From positions 2,666,001-2,730,000 of the forward strand of contig NZ_CP157967.1 in NCBI RefSeq assembly GCF_040215725.1: a stretch of DNA of 64,000 nucleotides, read 5' to 3'. Source of the stretch: Rhizobium sp. ZPR4 (GTDB lineage: Bacteria > Pseudomonadota > Alphaproteobacteria > Rhizobiales > Rhizobiaceae). Positions 23,834 through 60,083 of this stretch are shown here, piece by piece. The notes beneath the pieces are model-generated. The model was not told the DNA's origin, made no database searches, and saw only the letters and a program-made list of their open reading frames with translations. How positions within the stretch are numbered: position 1 is the stretch's first letter; each line of letters begins with the position of its first letter. A program made the translations under genes and the position numbers.

Positions 23834-24781
23834 TCAGAACGGTGAATCGGGGAAGTAGAAGTCCTTGGCATTGTCCTTGGTGACGAGCGTCGCATCGAGG
23901 ATGTAATTGCCGCGAACCGGAACCTGGTCGTAGAAGTTGGCAGCCGTCAGCTCCATGGCGGTGCCGACCATTGCCGGCGGATAGAGCACGTCGACGGGGA
24001 TCAGCTTGTCGCCGTCCATGACCTTCTTGATCATGTCCTTCGAGCCGGCACCGGCGATGACATATTTGATGTCGGTGCGCTTGGCCTGCTCGATCGCTTG
24101 CAGCACGCCGACGGCCATATCATCATCCTGGCACCAGACGACGTCGATCTTCGGGAACTTCGTCAGGTAGTCCTGCATGACCTTGAAGGCATCGTCGCGG
24201 TTCCAGTTGCCATACTGGCGGTCGAGAACCTTGACGTTCGAGCCGGCAATGCCCTTGTCGAAGCCGTCCTGACGCTGCTGGTCGATCGGGATCGGCAGGC
24301 CGCGGATTATGACGACCTGAGCGTCCGGAGTGTTCTTCTTGATGTATTCGCCGGCGGTCTGGCCAAGCGCCGGATTGTTGCCGGCGACATAGAGGTCACG
24401 GACGGAATTGTCGTTGTTGCTCGGCGCACGGTCGACGAGCGTCACGAACTTGCCCTTGTCCTTGACTTCCTTGATGGCGTTGACCAGCGGGTCCGGATCG
24501 GACGGCAGGATCACGAGAGCATCGATGCCCTGGGTCTCGAGATCCTGAACCGCGTTGGCCTGGCTTGCCGCGTCCGGCGAGGTCTTGACGATAACGTTCA
24601 GCCCCGGATGCTCCGCCATCAGCAGCTTGGCGACACGCTCGGCATGGAACACCACGCCCGAGGTCCAGCCATGATCGGCTGCCGGAATGGAAACACCGAT
24701 CGTCACCTTCTTGTCTGCGGCATGCACGGTACCGGCCAGAGCCGCCATTACGACAGCCACGCCCAATAGTCTTTTTCGCAT
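23834..24781 (-). CDS. Sugar ABC transporter substrate-binding protein (ribose family)
   Basis: A 315-residue periplasmic binding protein of the CUT2 type (RbsB-like). Signal peptide about residues 1-21 ending in VHAAD; the first lobe begins KKVTIGVSIPAADHGW and sugar-binding positions include DLETQGIDALVILPSD, VDRAPS and CQDDDMAVG. ATG 24781 has GGGAGGA; a longer start at 24796 is less likely. It is the last gene of a minus-strand ATPase-permease-binding protein operon, followed by a terminator. The sugar is unknown; neighbours point to a pentose, inositol or glucoside-like ligand. Confidence 0.88.
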   Translation of the reverse strand: MRKRLLGVAVVMAALAGTVHAADKKVTIGVSIPAADHGWTSGVVFHAERVAKLLMAEHPGLNVIVKTSPDAASQANAVQDLETQGIDALVILPSDPDPLVNAIKEVKDKGKFVTLVDRAPSNNDNSVRDLYVAGNNPALGQTAGEYIKKNTPDAQVVIIRGLPIPIDQQRQDGFDKGIAGSNVKVLDRQYGNWNRDDAFKVMQDYLTKFPKIDVVWCQDDDMAVGVLQAIEQAKRTDIKYVIAGAGSKDMIKKVMDGDKLIPVDVLYPPAMVGTAMELTAANFYDQVPVRGNYILDATLVTKDNAKDFYFPDSPF

Positions 24782-24847
24782 GTTATCCTCCCACAAAGAA
24801 ACAGGGCCTTGTTCTGACGACCGGGCGCCCCCTAACCCGGTTATTCG

Positions 24848-25858
24848 CTATTTGCGAGCCAGCGAGCGCTGAACCAGCATGGCGATGATGATGATCGCAC
24901 CCTGGATGGCGCTGAGCAGATACTCGCTGATGAAATTGGAAAGCAGCATGATGTTGCCGACGAGCTCGAGAATGAAGGCGCCGCAGATCGTGCCCCATAC
25001 CCTGCCCGCGCCGCCTTTCAGCGCCGTGCCGCCAACGACGACGGCGGTGATTGCCTGCAACTCCCACAGGCTGCCCGTCGTCGCCGAGGTCGAACCAAGC
25101 CGCGGCACATAGAGAAGCACGGCGACCGCCACGCAAAGACCCTGGATAACGAAGGCGACCGTGCGCACGCGGTTGACCGCCACGCCGGAATAACGGGCAA
25201 CGTCACGGTTGGAGCCAACGGCAATCACATGCCGTCCATAGCGGGTGCGGTAGAGAATGAAGGCGGCGATGCAGGTGACGACGAGGATGACCACGATCGG
25301 CACCGGAACGCCGAGCACCGTGCCGTAATAGGCGGGCTTGTAGAGCGCCTGAATATCCGCCGGCCTCAGGGTGATCGCGCCGCCCTGTGACAGCCAGGTC
25401 GTCAAGCCACGATAGACGCCCATGGTGCCGAGCGTCGCGATGAATGGCTCGATCTTGCCCATGGTCGTAATCAGCCCGTTGGCGAGGCCGCACAGGAGAC
25501 CGGCAATGATCGAGAACAACACGGCTGCCGCCAGCATCATGGTGGGGTCGGCGATGACGCCCGAGTTCATGAACAGGATCATCAGGCTCGCGACAAAGGC
25601 GACCATCGCGCCGACGGACAAATCGAGATCGCCGGCCGAAATGACGAAGGTCGCGCCGACCGCGATGATGGCGATGAAAGCGCATCGCGTTGCGACATTG
25701 GTAAGATTGGTAATGCCGATGAAATTCGGATTGACCAGTGCGCCCACGATCAGAAGCAGCACCAGGGCTGCAAACGGCGCAACGGCCCTAAGATCGACAT
25801 CCCGCCAGGAACGCCCTCGCCGACCGGCCTTGCCGCTGCTGTCTTCGCCCACGCTCAT
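24848..25858 (-). CDS. Sugar ABC transporter permease (RbsC type)
   Basis: A 336-residue inner membrane permease of the CUT2 family with 8-10 hydrophobic helices. The family motif VGATFVISAGDLDLSVGAMVAF near residue 70 and the coupling segment YGRHVIAVGSNRDVARYSGVAVN are both clear, as is the C-terminal GGTALKGGAGRVWGTICGA. The ATG at 25858 has GGGAGG upstream. CUT2 systems use two copies of one permease and one double ATPase, as here. Confidence 0.9.
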   Translation of the reverse strand: MSVGEDSSGKAGRRGRSWRDVDLRAVAPFAALVLLLIVGALVNPNFIGITNLTNVATRCAFIAIIAVGATFVISAGDLDLSVGAMVAFVASLMILFMNSGVIADPTMMLAAAVLFSIIAGLLCGLANGLITTMGKIEPFIATLGTMGVYRGLTTWLSQGGAITLRPADIQALYKPAYYGTVLGVPVPIVVILVVTCIAAFILYRTRYGRHVIAVGSNRDVARYSGVAVNRVRTVAFVIQGLCVAVAVLLYVPRLGSTSATTGSLWELQAITAVVVGGTALKGGAGRVWGTICGAFILELVGNIMLLSNFISEYLLSAIQGAIIIIAMLVQRSLARK

Positions 25859-45539: not shown

Positions 45540-45680
45540 GGTTAGGAATCGGAATTTCCGATATCGTCTTTCTGATAAATGAATTTGCGAATACGGCGAA
45601 ATCGCGTCACCTTTTCTTCCGGGAACAGGAAGCCAGCCACTGGCTCCACACGATCAAGGCTCAAAAACCGGGAGAGTCCG

Positions 45681-46841
45681 ATGAAGCATCTGCTGAAATC
45701 ATGCACGGCCGCACTCGCATGCTTAAGTTTCGCCACGCAGATCATTGCTGCCGAGCCGTTGAAGACGCTCGGCAAGGGTGAAGGTGCCGTCAGCATTGTC
45801 GCATGGGCCGGCTATATCGAGCGCGGCGAAAGCGACAAGAATTACGATTGGGTCACGGGCTTCGAAAAGGAGACCGGCTGCAAGGTCAGCGTCAAGACCG
45901 CGGCAACATCGGACGAAATGGTCGCCCTGATGAACGAGGGCGGCTTCGATCTCGTCACCGCTTCCGGCGACGCATCGCTGCGTCTCGTGGCCGGCAAGCG
46001 CGTCCAGCCGATCAATACCGATCTGATCCCGAGCTGGAAGAACCTTGACGAACGCCTGAAGAATGCCCCTTGGCACACGGTCAACGGCGTCCACTATGGC
46101 GTGCCCTATCTCTGGGGGCCGAACGTGCTGATGTACAACACCGATGCCTTCAAGGGTCAGGCGCCGAAGAGCTGGAACATCGTTTTCGAAGAGATGACCC
46201 TGCCCGACGGCAAGTCGAACAAGGGCCGCGTGCAGGCCTATGACGGCCCGATCTATATTGCCGATGCTGCCCTCTACCTCATGGCGCACAAGCCGGAGCT
46301 GGGTATCAAGGACCCTTACGAACTCAACGAAGACCAGTACAAGGCGGCTCTGGAACTGCTGCGCGGCCAGCGCAAGATCGTCAGCCGCTACTGGCATGAC
46401 GCGATGATCCAAACCGACGACTTCAAGAACGAAGGCGTCGTTGCCTCCGGCTCCTGGCCGTTCCAGGTCAACCTCCTGCAGGCCGACAAGCAGAAGATCG
46501 CCTCCACCTTCCCGGATGAGGGAACGACGGGCTGGGCCGATACCACCATGCTGCATGCCGACAGCGAGCATCCGAACTGCGCCTATATGTGGATGGAACA
46601 TTCACTGCAGGCAAAGGTCCAGGGCGATGCCGCCGCCTGGTTCGGTGCCGTGCCCTCGGTTCCCGCAGCCTGCAAGGGCAATGAGCTGCTGACCGACAGC
46701 GGTTGCGCGACCAACGGCTACGACCACTTCGACAAAATCCGCTTCTGGAAGACGCCTGTCGCGAAATGCAGCACCCAGAGCGAATGTGTGCCCTATCATC
46801 GCTGGGTCTCCGACTATATCGGCGTGATCGGCGGCAGATAA
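45681..46841 (+). CDS. ydcS: Putrescine-type ABC transporter substrate-binding protein
   Basis: A 386-residue periplasmic binding protein of the spermidine/putrescine (PotD/YdcS) family. Signal peptide about residues 1-23 (HLLKSCTAALACLSFATQIIAAE). The mature part begins with VSIVAWAGYIERG and contains DLVTASGDASLRLVAGKRVQPI and the PYLWGPNVLMYNTDAF hinge typical of YdcS. Gene order (binding protein, ATPase, two permeases, aldehyde dehydrogenase) equals E. coli ydcSTUV-patD. ATG 45681 follows GGGAGAG. A 10-bp stem-loop follows the gene. Confidence 0.9.
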   Translation: MKHLLKSCTAALACLSFATQIIAAEPLKTLGKGEGAVSIVAWAGYIERGESDKNYDWVTGFEKETGCKVSVKTAATSDEMVALMNEGGFDLVTASGDASLRLVAGKRVQPINTDLIPSWKNLDERLKNAPWHTVNGVHYGVPYLWGPNVLMYNTDAFKGQAPKSWNIVFEEMTLPDGKSNKGRVQAYDGPIYIADAALYLMAHKPELGIKDPYELNEDQYKAALELLRGQRKIVSRYWHDAMIQTDDFKNEGVVASGSWPFQVNLLQADKQKIASTFPDEGTTGWADTTMLHADSEHPNCAYMWMEHSLQAKVQGDAAAWFGAVPSVPAACKGNELLTDSGCATNGYDHFDKIRFWKTPVAKCSTQSECVPYHRWVSDYIGVIGGR

Positions 46842-46981: not shown

Positions 46982-47968
46982 ATGAACGCCGTTCGTTTCC
47001 AGCAGGTGTCGCGCCATTTCGGCCAGGTCCGCGCTGTGGACCGCGTCGATCTGGAAATCGCGCCCGGCGAATTCTTCGCCATGCTCGGCCCTTCCGGTTC
47101 CGGCAAGACCACCTGCCTCAGGCTGATCGCCGGCTTCGAGCAGCCCACCGGCGGCCATATCGAGATCTTCGGCGAGACTGCCGAAGGCGTCCCGCCCTAT
47201 AGGCGCAACGTCAACACCGTCTTCCAGGATTACGCCCTGTTTCCGCATCTCAATATCCTCGACAACGTCGCCTATGGTCTGATGGTCAAAGGCGTCGGCA
47301 AGGTCGAGCGCCTGCGCGCCGCCGAACAGGCGCTGGAGTTGGTGAAGCTGCCGGGCTACGGCGCCCGCCGCCCCGGCCAGCTCTCCGGCGGCCAGCGCCA
47401 GCGCGTGGCGTTGGCCCGAGCGCTGGTCAACAAGCCCAAGGTGCTGCTGCTTGATGAGCCACTCGGCGCTCTCGACCTCAAACTGCGCGAGCAGATGCAG
47501 GAGGAATTGAAGAGCCTGCAGCGCGCGCTCGGCATCACCTTCGTCTTCGTCACCCACGATCAGGGCGAGGCTCTGTCCATGGCCGATCGCGTCGCCGTCT
47601 TCAACGATGGCCGCATCGTCCAGCAGGGCACACCACACGATATCTATCAGCGGCCAAAGACACGCTTCGTCGCCGACTTCGTCGGCTCCTCCAACGTCAT
47701 CGCCCCGGAAACCATGTCGTCGCTTGGCGGCGAACGGCGCTGGGCAAGCCTGCGCCCCGAGGCCATCCGCCTGACCGAAGAGAGCGGCGTCGCGGCGACG
47801 GTCAAGGCAACGAGCTTCCTCGGCGCGGCCACCCGCCTCTCGGTGGAGACAAATGGCACCCGCCTGCATGTGACGGTACCCGCCGGGCAGTTAGCTCCGG
47901 TTTCAGGCACATCCGTCCGCCTCGCATGGCTGCCGGCAGATGTCCACTATATGGACGACGCCGCATGA
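46982..47968 (+). CDS. ydcT: Putrescine-type ABC transporter ATP-binding protein
   Basis: A 328-residue ATPase of the PotA type. Walker A GPSGSGKT (36-43), Q-loop NTVFQDYALFPHL, signature LSGGQRQRVALARAL, Walker B VLLLDEPLGALD and switch VTHDQGEAL are all intact; a C-terminal TOBE-like domain follows (about 235-328). Its stop overlaps the start of the first permease gene (ATGA). The 140-base gap upstream holds only the stem-loop and the ribosome site. Confidence 0.93.
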   Translation: MNAVRFQQVSRHFGQVRAVDRVDLEIAPGEFFAMLGPSGSGKTTCLRLIAGFEQPTGGHIEIFGETAEGVPPYRRNVNTVFQDYALFPHLNILDNVAYGLMVKGVGKVERLRAAEQALELVKLPGYGARRPGQLSGGQRQRVALARALVNKPKVLLLDEPLGALDLKLREQMQEELKSLQRALGITFVFVTHDQGEALSMADRVAVFNDGRIVQQGTPHDIYQRPKTRFVADFVGSSNVIAPETMSSLGGERRWASLRPEAIRLTEESGVAATVKATSFLGAATRLSVETNGTRLHVTVPAGQLAPVSGTSVRLAWLPADVHYMDDAA

Positions 47969-48939
47969 ACGCCGCCGCCTTCCCCGCCTCGTCGAGCCAG
48001 GCGCCGGCCTCGATCCTGCCGCGCCGCGGCGGTTTCTTCGGCCGCCTTTCCGATCTCTTCTGGCGCCGCCCGAAGCTGCTGCTGTTCCTGATGCTGACGC
48101 CGCCGCTGCTCTGGCTCGGCATCATCTATATCGGCTCGCTGATCGCGTTGCTGCTGCAGAGCTTCTTCTCGATCGACGATTTCTCGGGAATGGTGAACTA
48201 CCAGTTCACCCTCTCGACCTATGCGCAGCTGCTGAACACAGCCAATTTCGATATCATCGTGCGCACGGTCGTCATGGCCGCTCTCGTCACCTTCGCCTCC
48301 GCCTTCGTCGCCTTTCCCATCGCCTATTACGCGGCGCGCTATGCGCAGGGCAAATGGAAGGCGCTGTTCTATCTCGGCATCATGCTGCCGCTCTGGTCGA
48401 GCTATCTGGTGAAGGTCTATGCCTGGAAGCTGATCCTCGCCAAGGAGGGCATCCTCACCTGGATCTTCGACAAGCTGCATCTCGGCTGGCTGCTCGACGG
48501 CGTGCTTGCCCTGCCCATCATCGGCGGCAACTCGCTGTCGGTGAGCTATATCGGCACCTTCCTCGTCTTCGTCTATATCTGGCTGCCCTATATGATCCTG
48601 CCGACGCAGGCCGCCCTCGAGCGCGTGCCGTCAAACCTGCTCGAAGCCTCGTCCGATCTCGGCGCGACGCCAAACCAGACCTTCCGCACGGTACTTCTGC
48701 CGCTCGCTTTGCCGGGTGTGGTCGCCGGCTCCATCTTCACCTTCTCGCTGACCTTAGGCGATTACATCATCCCGCAGATCATCGGCTCCTCGCGCCTCTT
48801 CATCGGCCAGGCCGTCTACGCACAACAGGGAACCGCCGGCAACGTGCCGCTCGCCGCCGCCTTCTCGGTCGTGCCGATCGTCATCATGGCCATCTATCTC
48901 TGGATCGCCAAAAAGCAGGGAGCTTTCGATGCGCTCTGA
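47965..48939 (+). CDS. ydcU: Putrescine-type ABC transporter permease 1
   Basis: A 324-residue inner membrane permease (PotB/YdcU type) with about six core helices after a basic N-terminal tail (residues 1-37). The EAA loop is EASSDLGATPNQTFRTVLLPLALPG, in place for contact with the ATPase. The last codons, TTCGATGCGCTC, end in TGA at 48937-48939, and the ATG inside GATGCG at 48929 is the start of the guest gene that follows. In the ancestral operon the same ATG would have started permease 2. Confidence 0.92.
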   Translation: MNAAAFPASSSQAPASILPRRGGFFGRLSDLFWRRPKLLLFLMLTPPLLWLGIIYIGSLIALLLQSFFSIDDFSGMVNYQFTLSTYAQLLNTANFDIIVRTVVMAALVTFASAFVAFPIAYYAARYAQGKWKALFYLGIMLPLWSSYLVKVYAWKLILAKEGILTWIFDKLHLGWLLDGVLALPIIGGNSLSVSYIGTFLVFVYIWLPYMILPTQAALERVPSNLLEASSDLGATPNQTFRTVLLPLALPGVVAGSIFTFSLTLGDYIIPQIIGSSRLFIGQAVYAQQGTAGNVPLAAAFSVVPIVIMAIYLWIAKKQGAFDAL

Positions 48940-48941
48940 TC
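48929..48941 (+). repeat. Direct repeat, left copy, flanking the inserted gene
   Basis: ATGCGCTCTGATC, identical to 49537-49549. It contains the end of permease 1 (GCGCTCTGA) and supplies the start codon of the inserted gene. Confidence 0.9.
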
Positions 48942-49537
48942 CAAGGTTTGTTGAGCTTATCGAAGAGTTTCCAGAACTCGCGGATGCGTCAATAATAATA
49001 GAAAAAGAACTCTACGCGCACTTTGGCCTGCTATTTTTTACGTTCGCACTGGTCGAACATTCCTTAATAAATTTTGCCGTTTTTGACGCGATGGGGAAAG
49101 CAATTCGAAATAATTCCCTTCGTAGCCGAACGGAGTGGGAAGATGCTTTTGACCGAAACTATGAGAAGGCAAAATCGCTTTCTCTAGGAAACTTAATTAA
49201 AACTATAAGAGACATCCCGGAGCTGGCTACTGATTTTGGCGAAATCGCTAAAATGAAGGCAGAGAGGGACTACTTTGCTCATCATTTTTTTCGCGACGAG
49301 ATAGTCTACTTCAAAAGCGACGATCGAGGATGGCTGTTGCTATTCAAATTGCAGGAGGTGCGGCAACGCGCTCACAAGCTTGAGGATAGGCTAAAGCCGC
49401 AATTCGATCTCATGTGTGGCCGCTATGGTTTACCACGCCCTACCTCAGAACAACTTACCCAAACACTCAATGAATATGAAAATGAAACCGCAGTTGCAGT
49501 GTCTAATGGCACTGCCCGATTTGGGTGGGAAAAGTAA
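48929..49537 (+). CDS. Inserted gene of unknown function with HEPN-like R-x4-H motif
   Basis: A 202-residue cytoplasmic, mainly helical protein; no signal or clear membrane span. It holds R113-x4-H118 in [14 protein letters not shown], the R-x(4-6)-H form found in HEPN ribonuclease domains, with a preceding helix [20 protein letters not shown] as in HEPN folds. No sequence family is recognised, so the assignment is tentative. Base use is much richer in A and T than the genes around it (many AAA, ATA, TTA and AGA codons), a sign of transfer. It starts inside the end of permease 1 (11-base overlap) and its TAA shares a base with the ATG of permease 2. The flanking 13-bp repeat is listed separately. 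Confidence 0.85.
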
Positions 49538-49549
49538 TGCGCTCTGATC
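49537..49549 (+). repeat. Direct repeat, right copy, flanking the inserted gene
   Basis: ATGCGCTCTGATC again; here it is the start of permease 2. Copy-to-copy distance is 608 bp. Confidence 0.9.
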
Positions 49550-50352
49550 GTGGCCAACGCGCCTCCTTCCCCCTGAAGATCGCAGCCGCCGGCGGCTTGC
49601 TCTTCCTGCATCTGCCGATCCTCCTGATCTTCGTCTACGCCTTCACCACGGAGGAAAAGAGCTATCAGTGGCCGCCACCGGACTTGACCCTGCAATGGTT
49701 CGGCATTGCCTGGAACAGGCCGGATGTCTGGTCAGCACTGGCGTTGTCCGTTCAGGTCGCAATCATCGCCACCATCATCGCCTTGATCCTCGGCACGCTC
49801 TGCGCCGCCGCAGTCAGCCAGACGAAGTTCTTCGGCCGCGAGGCGATCTCGCTGCTTGTGATCTTGCCGATCGCGCTGCCCGGCATCATCACCGGTATTG
49901 CGCTGCGCTCTGCCTTCAGCCTGCTCGATATCCCCTTCTCGGTCTGGACGATCGTTCTCGGCCATGCCACCTTCTGCGTTGTGGTTGTTTATAACAATGC
50001 CGTCGCCCGCTTCCGTCGCACCTCCGGTTCACTCATCGAGGCATCGATGGATCTCGGCGCCGATGGCTTTCAGACCTTTCGCCATGTCGTGCTGCCGAAC
50101 ATCGGCACGGCGCTGCTTGCCGGCGGCATGCTTGCCTTCGCTCTGTCCTTTGACGAGGTCATCGTCACCACCTTCACCGGCGGCCAGCAGATGACCTTGC
50201 CGATCTGGATGCTGGAGGAGCTCATTCGCCCGCGCCAACGACCCGTGACCAATGTCGTCGCCATGGTCGTCGTGCTTGTCACCTTCCTGCCGATCCTGGC
50301 AGCCTACTATCTTACCCGCGACGGCGACCAGATCGCCGGCGGCGGCAAATGA
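49537..50352 (+). CDS. ydcV: Putrescine-type ABC transporter permease 2
   Basis: A 271-residue inner membrane permease (PotC/YdcV type) with six helices. It starts [36 protein letters not shown] in normal form; the EAA loop is [23 protein letters not shown]. Its first four residues equal those of the inserted gene because the 13-bp repeat covers both starts. It lacks a ribosome site of its own now, so it depends on coupling to the guest gene's stop. Confidence 0.92.
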
Positions 50353-50365
50353 AAGGGAGAGAATA

Positions 50366-51793
50366 ATGGATACCCAAATGCTGATCGGCTCCCGCTTTGA
50401 AGCCGGCACGGAAACGGAAGAGCATGTGCTCAATCCGAAGACCGGCGAGAAAGTGGTCGACCTGCCGGAGGCGTCGCTCGGCCAGATCGACGCCGCCGTT
50501 GACGCTGCGGAAAAGGCCTTTACGAGCTGGTCGCAGACGACGCCAAGTCAGCGCTCGAGCTATCTCCTGAAAATCGCCGACGCCATCGAGCGCGATGCAG
50601 AAGGCTTCGCTGCCCTGGAAGCGCTGAACTGCGGCAAGCCTATCAATGCGGTCCTTAACGACGAAATCCCCGCAATCGTCGACTGCTACCGCTTCTTTGC
50701 CGGCGCGGTGCGCAACCTGCACGGCCCGGTCGCCGGCGAATATCTGCCTGGCCACACCTCGATGATCCGCCGCGACCCGATCGGCATCGTCGGCTCCATC
50801 GCGCCCTGGAACTATCCGCTGATGATGATGGCCTGGAAATTGGCACCGGCGATTGCCGGCGGCAACACTGTCGTCTTCAAACCCTCCGAACAGACGCCGC
50901 TAACCGCCTTGAAGATGGCGAAGCTTTTGGCGGATGTCCTGCCGGAAGGCGTCGTCAACGTTATCCTCGGCCGCGGCGAGAGTGTCGGCAACGCGCTGAT
51001 CAACCACCCGAAGATCAGCATGGTCTCCATCACCGGCGATGTCGCGACCGGCAAGAAGGTGCTGGCCGCCGCCGCCAAGACGGTCAAGCGCACGCACCTC
51101 GAACTCGGAGGCAAGGCCCCCGTCATCGTCTTCGACGATGCCGATATCGACGCCGTCGTGTCAGGCATCCGCACCTTCGGCTACTACAATGCCGGCCAGG
51201 ACTGCACCGCCGCCTGCCGCATCTATGCCGACGCCAAGGTCTACGACAATTTCGTCGCCGATCTCACCTCGGCCGTGTCCAGCATCAAGTTCAATCTCGC
51301 CGACGATACCGAGAACGAGATCGGCCCGCTGATCTCCAAGCGCCAGCGCGACCGCGTCGAAAGTTTCGTCACCCGTGCCGCCGAACACAAGCACATGGAA
51401 ATCACGACAGGCGGCAAGATTTCCGGCGAGCGTGGCTTCTTCTATGCGCCGACCATCGTCGCCGGCGCCACGCAAGACGACGAGATCGTGCGCCGCGAAG
51501 TCTTCGGCCCCGTCGTCTCCGTAACACGCTTCACCAACCCCGACGATGCCGTCACCTGGGCGAATGACAGCGACTACGGCCTCGCCTCCTCGGTCTGGAC
51601 CAAGGACATCAGCCGTGGCATGCAGACAGCAGCCCGGCTGCAATATGGCTGCACCTGGATCAACACCCACTTCATGCTGGTCAACGAAATGCCGCATGGC
51701 GGCCTGAAGCAATCCGGCTACGGCAAGGATATGTCAGTCTACGCTATCGAAGATTATACCGCCGTGCGGCATGTGATGATCAATCACGGGTAA
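50366..51793 (+). CDS. patD: Gamma-aminobutyraldehyde dehydrogenase
   Basis: Oxidises 4-aminobutanal, made from putrescine by transamination, to GABA with NAD+. A 475-residue aldehyde dehydrogenase with the general base E246 in HLELGGK, catalytic C280 in [12 protein letters not shown]149 in APWNYP, and [10 protein letters not shown]. The gap to permease 2 is 13 bases with AAAGGGAGAG. The YdcW/PatD assignment rests on operon order and on the QDCTA signature of the ABAL-dehydrogenase group; related amino-aldehyde substrates cannot be excluded. Confidence 0.9.
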
Positions 51794-58113: not shown

Positions 58114-59211
58114 TTAGTTTGCGAGGCTCTTGCCGGTTTCGACGGAGAAGAGATGCGCCTGACTAAGGTCGAAGCTCATCTTCAGCTGTTCGCCGCTCTT
58201 CAGCGCGCGCGGATTGAGCATGCGCGTCACCCATTCGCGCCCGGCAAATTCGACGAAGACAAGCGTTTCATTGCCGAGCGGTTCGGTGATGGCGACGGGC
58301 AGTGTCAGTTCGTAGACGGCGGATTCCGCGCCCGAATGCAGGCCGTGACCGGTGGGGAAGATGTCGTCGGGCCGGAGACCGAAAGCGACCGTCTCGCCTT
58401 CCCTGACCTTGCCGGCAAATTGGCCCGGCAGCGGCAGACGGTCGCCATTCTTGAAGATGAGTTCGCCTGATTTCAGCGTCGCCTCCTCGATGTTCATCGG
58501 CGGCGAACCGATGAAACCGGCGACAAAGCGCGTGGCGGGCCGCTTGAACACTTCGTCCGGTGTGCCAACCTGTTCGATATAACCATCGCGCATGATGACG
58601 ATGCGGTCGGCAAGCGTCATGGCCTCGACCTGGTCGTGCGTGACGTAAACCACCGTCGACTGCACCTTGGCATGCAGCTTCTTGATCTCGGTGCGCATCT
58701 GTGTGCGCAGCTTGGCGTCGAGGTTCGACAGCGGCTCGTCGAAGAGGAAGACCTCCGGCTGGCGGACGATGGCGCGGCCCATGGCGACGCGCTGACGCTG
58801 ACCGCCGGAAAGCTGCGCCGGACGACGATCCATCAGGGCTTCGAGGCTCAAGATGGCCGCTGCTTCATTGACCCGCTTGTCGATCTCAGCCTGCGGCTGC
58901 TTGGCGATCTTCAAGGAGAAGCCCATGTTCTCGCGCACGGTCATATGCGGATAGAGCGCATAGGACTGGAATACCATCGAGATGTTGCGATCGCGCGGTG
59001 GCAGGTCGTTGACGACGGTATCGCCGATCTCGATCGTGCCGTCTGAGACATCCTCCAGGCCGGCGATCATGCGCAGCGTCGTCGACTTGCCGCAGCCGGA
59101 GGGGCCGACGAGCGCGATGAACTCCTTGTCCGCGATGTCGAGATCGATCCCGTGGACGATTTCCAGCGCACCATAGCGCTTGACGAGTTTTTTAAGGGAA
59201 ACCTGAGCCAT
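58114..59211 (-). CDS. CUT1 sugar ABC transporter ATP-binding protein (UgpC/MsmK type)
   Basis: A 365-residue ATPase: Walker A GPSGCGKST, Q-loop SMVFQSYALYPHM, signature LSGGQRQRVAMGRAI, Walker B VFLFDEPLSNLD, switch VTHDQVEAM, and a C-terminal regulatory TOBE/OB domain. It energises the permeases of the same operon. ATG 59211 follows AAGGGAA; an upstream frame extension to 59319 is not coding. It ends 11 bases before the dehydratase gene. Confidence 0.93.
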   Translation of the reverse strand: MAQVSLKKLVKRYGALEIVHGIDLDIADKEFIALVGPSGCGKSTTLRMIAGLEDVSDGTIEIGDTVVNDLPPRDRNISMVFQSYALYPHMTVRENMGFSLKIAKQPQAEIDKRVNEAAAILSLEALMDRRPAQLSGGQRQRVAMGRAIVRQPEVFLFDEPLSNLDAKLRTQMRTEIKKLHAKVQSTVVYVTHDQVEAMTLADRIVIMRDGYIEQVGTPDEVFKRPATRFVAGFIGSPPMNIEEATLKSGELIFKNGDRLPLPGQFAGKVREGETVAFGLRPDDIFPTGHGLHSGAESAVYELTLPVAITEPLGNETLVFVEFAGREWVTRMLNPRALKSGEQLKMSFDLSQAHLFSVETGKSLAN

Positions 59212-59216
59212 TGAGA

Positions 59217-60083
59217 TCAACCTTTGACCGCACCGAATGTCAGACCCGACACCAGATGCTTCTGAATGATGAAAGTGAGAGCGAGCGCGGGAACGATCAT
59301 GACAACAGCCAGCGCGCACATGCCGCGCCAGTCGATGGTGAACTCGGCCGTATAGTCGAGCAGACCGACGGGCAGCGTCTTGGAATCGACGGAACGCGTC
59401 AGCTGCGAGGCCAGTGCATATTCATTCCAGCAGGTGAGGAAGGCGAAAATGCCGGCGGATGCGATACCGGGGCCGGCAAGCGGGAATTCCACCTGCCAGA
59501 AGGCCTGCCAGCGATTGCAGCCGTCGATCTGCGCGGCTTCGGCCAGATCCTTCGGCACCTGCCGGAAGAAGCCGTCGATCAGCCAGATGGTGAAGGGCAC
59601 GTTCAGCGCGACATAGGTGAGGATCAGGCCGAAATGCGTGTCGATGATCCCGAGCCGCGCATAGACCATGAACAGCGGCAATGAGAGCGCCACGCCGGGC
59701 ACGGAGCGCGTCAGCATCAGCCCGAGGAACACGGCCGACTTACCTGCGAAACGGAAGCGGGCGAAGGCATAGCCCCCGGACATGCCGATGACGAGCGCAA
59801 TGGCCGTCGAGGTGATGGAGATGATCAGCGAATTGCGGAAATAGTCCCAAACGGGAATGCCGCCCTGCCCCACGCCGCTGAACATGGCGCGATAAGCTTC
59901 CAGTGACAGCTCCTGCGGGATCCAGACCGCCGGCTTTGCCATGATCTCCACGGTCGGGCGCAGCGAGCTGATAACGATCCAGAAGCCGGGCAGGCAGATG
60001 ATGAGCATCGCGAGGAAAAGGCCGATAAGATAGGCGACTTTCCACAGGCGGCGCTGCAGGCGTTGTTGAGCGTTGCGATCCAT
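59217..60083 (-). CDS. CUT1 sugar ABC transporter permease (MalG type)
   Basis: A 288-residue inner membrane permease with six helices and an N-terminal basic tail. The EAA loop reads EAAQIDGCNRWQAFWQVEFPLAGPG. It begins 2 bases before the end of the preceding permease gene region (ATG at 60083, stop of permease 1 at 60086-60088), with GGAG as ribosome site. Partner of the other permease and the ATPase. Confidence 0.92.
   Translation of the reverse strand: MDRNAQQRLQRRLWKVAYLIGLFLAMLIICLPGFWIVISSLRPTVEIMAKPAVWIPQELSLEAYRAMFSGVGQGGIPVWDYFRNSLIISITSTAIALVIGMSGGYAFARFRFAGKSAVFLGLMLTRSVPGVALSLPLFMVYARLGIIDTHFGLILTYVALNVPFTIWLIDGFFRQVPKDLAEAAQIDGCNRWQAFWQVEFPLAGPGIASAGIFAFLTCWNEYALASQLTRSVDSKTLPVGLLDYTAEFTIDWRGMCALAVVMIVPALALTFIIQKHLVSGLTFGAVKG

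Follow-up and report, generated by a model that had tools for sequence, protein, structure and literature searches.

The stretch of DNA analysed here (64,000 nucleotides of the Rhizobium sp. ZPR4 genome, referred to as the window) carries a polyamine ABC transporter operon in which one additional gene, here called the guest, is situated between the two permease genes, giving the order ydcS-ydcT-ydcU-guest-ydcV-patD. Without the guest, this is the order ydcS-ydcT-ydcU-ydcV-patD of E. coli K-12, and the flanking genes correspond by Pfam to a binding protein, an ABC ATPase, two permeases, and an aldehyde dehydrogenase. The ydcS-like gene for the periplasmic polyamine-binding protein (45579..46841, + strand; SBP_bac_8, 4.5e-23), with a start codon taken from the open reading frame (ORF) tool, is followed by the ydcT-like ABC ATPase gene (46982..47968, +; ABC_tran, 2.5e-35), the sequence of which shares an ATGA overlap with ydcU. 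The ydcU-like permease 1 (47965..48939, +; BPD_transp_1, 1.5e-14) is full length with the C-terminus ...GAFDAL*, and the ydcV-like permease 2 (49537..50352, +; BPD_transp_1, 9.4e-12) is likewise full length. The patD-like aldehyde dehydrogenase gene (50366..51793, +; Aldedh, 5.6e-162) lies downstream.

The guest (48929..49537, +) is an ORF of 202 codons and a TAA stop, present as one copy in the 7.7 Mb genome, and its HEPN-like product contains the motif R113-x4-H118. The GC content of the guest is ~0.45 vs ~0.61 around it in the window composition, and the GC at third codon positions is 0.44, compared with 0.87 in ydcU and 0.81 in ydcV. The guest starts at the former ydcV start codon, 3' of the former AGGGAG ribosome-binding site, and the AGGGAG-type region now ahead of it (48917..48928, +) would be the one that originally served ydcV. 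At the opposite end, the guest terminates in Gly-Trp-Glu-Lys, and the codons GGGTGGGAAAAG directly precede the ydcV start as a putative new ribosome-binding site for that gene. Terminal inverted repeats were not found at the guest ends, the sole inverted pair listed being internal and 78% complementary. No integrase or transposase exists among the five neighbouring genes, all of which are the operon's own by Pfam; the rest of the genome was not searched for a recombinase.

Both ends of the guest are marked by the 13-mer ATGCGCTCTGATC, at 48929..48941 and 49537..49549 (+), with no third copy on either strand of the 64 kb and 0 in 100 shuffles. The 5' copy comprises the 11-nt overlap of ydcU and the guest plus TC, and the 3' copy is the ydcV start, with one base common to the guest TAA and the ATG (TAATG). 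Relatives with an empty site show an 11-nt overlap of ydcU with ydcV, which is exactly ATGCGCTCTGA in 61 of 63 distinct genomes and one base off in the remaining two; each has a single overlap, and the empty strain G524, labelled as the same species, has a single 13-mer. The overlap in E. coli K-12 is also 11 nt, ATGCACTCTGA, encoding ...GAFDAL* and MHSE.... Because E. coli K-12 and the empty relatives both possess it, the 11-nt overlap is most likely ancestral. The 13-mer is this overlap with two further matching bases, which match in some carriers only. Since both permeases are kept whole after insertion, the overlap must appear twice, and the matching ends of the guest are most simply the old gene overlap retained twice. 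The original prediction of an AT-rich, foreign 202-residue gene, inserted seamlessly between two whole permeases at a site holding one repeat copy when empty, bounded by a 13-mer pair and lacking terminal inverted repeats and a transposase, is thus borne out, except that the 13-mer, which does cover the overlap, contains a shared unit of only 11 nt.

Evidence on the origin of the window copy is derived from strain G524, which lacks the guest and, in an alignment of 63,403 bases, shares 98.4% identity with the window. A maximum-score scan against G524 delimits a divergent core at 48813-50983, where 156 of 1576 aligned bases differ (90.1% identity); this core scores 223, and the runner-up segment 51. 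Taken by segments, the two strains are 99.5% identical at 47000-48500, 95.0% at 48606-48928, and 89.75% at 49550-50983, so that the whole tract extends over 48606..50983, including the end of ydcU, the guest, ydcV, and the first ~618 bp of patD. The direction of exchange was read from 29 same-genus empty loci (L003-L031), out of 59 other genus genomes searched; the right outer segment, with unequal lengths, was left unscored. In the right part of the tract, 28 of the 29 are nearer to G524 than to the window; in the left part this holds for 24, and just left of the tract for none of the 29. The G524 tract being the nearer to the congeners, the guest-bearing stretch of the window is the foreign one. 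The guest lies inside this divergent tract, and therefore it seems to have arrived by homologous recombination of a ready-made operon allele of ~2.4 kb, rather than by an insertion event at this junction within the lineage. The special insertion mechanism once proposed for this genome consequently gives way to allele import.

Conversely, the window might retain the ancestral guest allele of the species, with G524 having lost the guest through an imported empty allele, and a divergent tract by itself cannot separate gain from loss. This reversal is nevertheless unlikely, given the closeness of the G524 tract to 28 of the 29 congeners, the marginally closer position of the window outside the tract, and the occurrence of an on-site guest in the window only among 148 genus genomes. 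The nearest protein to the guest is P0001, at 90% identity. A phage or plasmid origin of the window guest was rejected, with no phage match at E 0.1 and plasmid matches confined to three Vibrio plasmids at 27% identity. Eleven lesser segments of divergence between the window and G524 occur in the 64 kb, such as 46139-46484, 24476-25379, and 58822-59364, where the alignment is gap-free.

Beyond the window, a pattern-based scan covering 84,980 species, each represented by a single genome, yielded 14 loci related to the guest. Homologues occupy the same junction in seven genomes (L032-L036, L038, and L039), making eight with the window; six of the seven are alphaproteobacterial, and L039 is a metagenome-assembled genome classified as Proteobacteria only. 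Identical 11-mers are located at both guest ends in six of the eight carriers, with L039 possessing the variant ATGCACTCTGA at both; the repeat match in L035 is 10/11, and L038 lacks the 3' copy. For L032, the 11/11 match comes from the comparison of gene ends, the junction survey having misplaced its ydcV start owing to a frameshift. This apparent ydcV frameshift in L032 (Rhizobium sp. RCAM05350, 6608-7420), real or a sequencing error, leaves a first stop after 165 codons beside an intact guest. The on-site guest proteins are mutually 34-78% identical, and their genes are AT-rich throughout, with a GC content of 0.37-0.49 vs 0.60-0.68 in the flanks.

The ydcU/ydcV address is seldom occupied. 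In the family sample, guest matches were found in 7 of 394 genomes, three of them strong and all at the ydcU/ydcV junction; for the four weaker ones, ydcU and ydcV are absent from the 2.3-3.5 kb fetched around each. The genus sample gave two matches in 148 genomes, the on-site window copy and one distant homologue. Apart from the window's own, distant homologues turned up in 2 of 397 genomes sampled from the order and in 5 of 385 from the class, with neighbours read for six of these seven (L152 left out). For E. coli, a 421 bp junction query matched 5364 of 5426 genomes, 5354 of them holding at least 80% of the query, and of the 40 matches listed, 39 were covered in one piece and one partially, so that rare inserts may exist among the others; E. 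coli was rejected as a source of occupied junctions.

Such a recurrent address with exact ends might suggest site-specific insertion, in which the 11-bp overlap would serve an unknown trans-acting recombinase as the target for cassette-like integration of the guest, each event duplicating the core. Besides the address common to eight genomes and the exact 11-mers in six of them, the variant repeat at both ends in L039 and the absence of a visible recombination tract in L032, L033, and L034 are consistent with this mode. However, in the sole same-species comparison the guest sits inside a tract that is divergent on both sides; the neighbours are all operon genes; terminal inverted repeats are lacking at the guest ends; and a duplicated overlap is demanded by viability alone. 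Moreover, the genome holds a single guest copy, although a recombinase elsewhere in it was not searched for. Site-specific insertion is thus very unlikely. The related proposal that the unit might sit at many different start codons finds no backing in the contexts read: eight genomes share one junction, and the gene ends of seven off-site loci (L037, L040-L043, L045, and L046; L044 was excluded for its broken ORF) contain no repeat of at least 11 bases. Within 60 bp of the gene ends, no repeat of at least 9 bases occurs in L037, L040, L042, L043, L045, and L046, and one 9-mer repeat occurs in L041. Loci L049-L052, L132, and L145-L152 were outside this end-repeat test, and most of the 34 homologous proteins came without genomic context.

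The guest and permease phylogenies of the eight carriers, with L032 represented by ydcU only, are incompatible. The permease topology is rejected by the guest data (approximately unbiased (AU) test, p 6e-95), and the guest topology is rejected by the permease data (AU p 0.008). The conflict resides mainly in L032, the guest of which groups with that of the window (support 100) and the permease with that of L036 (support 95); other nodes are weaker. From this conflict it follows that the guest moved between hosts.

An opposite history, with one ancient insertion inherited vertically and many exact deletions between the 11-bp repeats, would account for the cleanly empty relatives, and it agrees with the flanks of L033 and L034, which look congeneric up to the junction. 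Guest identity also rises with ydcU identity (r = 0.64, 28 pairs); the correlation with ydcV identity is only r = 0.29, a value skewed by the frameshift in the L032 ydcV. This history is unlikely, since the guest tree is at odds with the permease tree, the window copy was imported, and the guests remain AT-rich within GC-rich hosts. In L033 and L034, the best congener is at least 90% identical in the first 100 bp on either side of the junction, and some congeners are 78-82% identical; for L032, the nearest guest-free relative available reaches 92-95% identity. These congener-like flanks of L032-L034 are equally consistent with old tracts having eroded, with exact losses among relatives, and with genuine insertions.

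In a wider guest tree (without P0003, P0023, P0034, L044, and L046), the on-site members require two label changes, which may be compatible with a single origin. Alternatively, HEPN-like genes could have entered the 11-nt overlap repeatedly by an undescribed route that duplicates the overlap, and then circulated as operon alleles by homologous recombination. Hints for such a dedicated docking address are the variant repeat at both ends in L039, the conflict of guest and permease trees, and the distant-clade proteins P0028, P0029, and P0031, which begin with M[RH]S[DE] and whose genomic context is unread; repeated entry is accordingly assigned a low, though not negligible, probability.

The guest protein itself has several features of a HEPN-like ribonuclease (RNase). 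R113 and H118 are conserved without exception across all 35 aligned sequences (alignment A1), and the R-x4-H motif recurs in 12 of 12 far homologues checked (L044 and L152 being outside the check). The residue following the arginine is Asp in the window and Asp or Asn in the 35 A1 members and in 11 of the 12 far homologues, L148 having Arg. The AlphaFold2 model is all helical, with a mean predicted local distance difference test score of 93.3 and helices at residues 24-60, 67-83, 86-92, 97-118, and 131-166. In this predicted secondary structure, the motif (residues 113-118) closes helix 97-118, ahead of a broken stretch that leads into the long helix 131-166. According to the definition of HEPN in PMC3710099, Rx4-6H closes helix 3 and precedes the loop connecting it with helix 4, and the Arg is directly followed by a polar residue (mostly Asn, Asp or His); the guest agrees with this definition in motif, polar residue, and motif placement. 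Fold searches of PDB and BFVD returned no useful match, by which the HEPN fold is neither supported nor excluded; the HEPN likeness suggested originally holds for the motif and its position at a helix end. Single-member family matches are weak (HEPN_RiboL-PSP 0.022, Apea 0.034, Cthe2314 0.036, AbiU2 0.046, and Csx1/Csm6 0.0038), and unrelated families score alike; the HepT matches of L151 are below the cut-off (Pfam 0.021, NCBIfam 0.0084). In a scan of PHROG, phrog_12893, of unknown function, was matched by 23 of the 35 A1 members (best E 5e-5) and may represent a phage branch of the guest family.

Distant homologues are situated in phage and defence surroundings. In Ruegeria (L045, 6001-6603), the homologue has an integrase on one side and a portal gene on the other; in L145 (1486-2043) it is immediately upstream of the portal gene, and in L146 (1432-2019) ~0.7 kb after the portal ORF. 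The vicinity of the portal gene in these three prophages suggests a recurring phage cargo position. Furthermore, on a Vibrio plasmid the homologue lies 106 bases after qatD of a Qat anti-phage system, and in Pontivivens a reverse transcriptase and a NERD protein flank a broken homologue. In three Paracoccus species (L040, L041, and L043), the homologue adjoins a gene read by eye, without a family scan, as adenine phosphoribosyltransferase, the other neighbour being common to L041 and L043 only. The R-x4-H motif, the helical model, and the prophage and defence contexts together lead to the reading of the guest as most likely a HEPN-like RNase with a role in defence, for which the fold and the RNase and anti-phage activities are presumed.

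A different role, as a permease-associated subunit or a regulator of polyamine uptake, would fit the position of the guest inside a polyamine operon and its single address. It would also fit the ratio of non-synonymous to synonymous substitutions (dN/dS), which is ~0.08 in two of five carrier pairs, dS being saturated in the other three; judged from these substitutions, the guest is under purifying selection in the two measurable pairs. Such a role is nonetheless improbable, as the guest is missing from nearly all sampled relatives and its homologues are located close to the portal gene of prophages, beside qatD, and near a reverse transcriptase. Compared with the HEPN toxin and abortive-infection RNases, as described in PMC3710099, the guest shares the predicted all-helical structure, the invariant R-x4-H with its polar residue, the placement at the end of helix 3, and, through its distant homologues, the defence and prophage neighbourhoods. 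It differs from them in scoring below every curated-model cut-off, in having no structure-search match, and in having no separate antitoxin gene adjoining it.

Taken together, the evidence makes it probable that the guest is a HEPN-like defence gene at a recurrent ydcU/ydcV address, carried in operon alleles with a duplicated overlap that spread and vanish by homologous recombination. The address recurs in scattered, mostly alphaproteobacterial genomes, where the duplicated 11-nt overlap keeps both permeases whole and would let the guest be read from the former ydcV start signal, presumably with expression by translational coupling. Alleles would be gained and lost through recombination in the conserved flanking genes, with no integrase at the site, and the other carriers may have acquired theirs by the same route.

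In integrons, too, a single gene with short direct repeats at its ends is exchanged as one unit. Unlike integron gene cassettes, the guest has neither an integrase nor terminal inverted repeats at its site, occupies one fixed address, and appears to be moved by homologous recombination. A closer parallel is found in Oliveira et al. 2017 (PMC5635113), where hotspots without mobile elements are ascribed to recombination at flanking core genes. In both cases, an accessory gene without its own mobile element is exchanged via conserved flanks, and the tract is directly seen here. In contrast to those hotspots, a single gene family is involved here, inside an operon and in a gene-gene overlap; its address is constant across genera and at least two families, with no turnover of different genes seen. 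In these terms, the guest is a single-gene, intra-operon variant of the recombination-driven exchange described in PMC5635113. One gene family holding one address in an 11-nt gene overlap, in several genera belonging to two or more families, and moving with the operon, is unusual; a literature search returned nothing pairing HEPN with ydcV and no title or abstract describing such a placement in overlapping operon genes. The locus provides an example of a lone defence-like gene travelling as an allele of a housekeeping operon, without its own mobile element, by way of the one insertion arrangement compatible with overlapping genes. It also illustrates that a perfect direct repeat found at a start codon is not necessarily a transposition duplication, and a foreign ORF enclosed by two copies of a gene overlap offers a search pattern for more such genes outside defence islands.

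The junction survey comprises 91 junctions and is non-random, guest loci having come from guest searches and spacer loci having been fetched because their matches were split; seven duplicate loci and L037, L110, and L112, with inadequate flanks, were left out. In the junctions read, the inserts are of the guest family or are short palindromic-repeat spacers only, and no other gene turnover was seen. The spacers, of 98-263 bp, split the overlap in 20 other same-family genomes (L083-L086, L092, L093, L095-L099, L101-L106, L108, L109, and L111), most with palindromic repeats of several different kinds. An origin of these spacers as guest remnants was rejected, given their palindromic repeats and the lack of any spacer-guest match at E 1e-3. 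At the split junctions, ydcV has an independent start and the 5' overlap copy has drifted, reading ATGCGCTGTGA in 12 of the 20, and the split and overlapped states of ydcU/ydcV co-occur within one genus.
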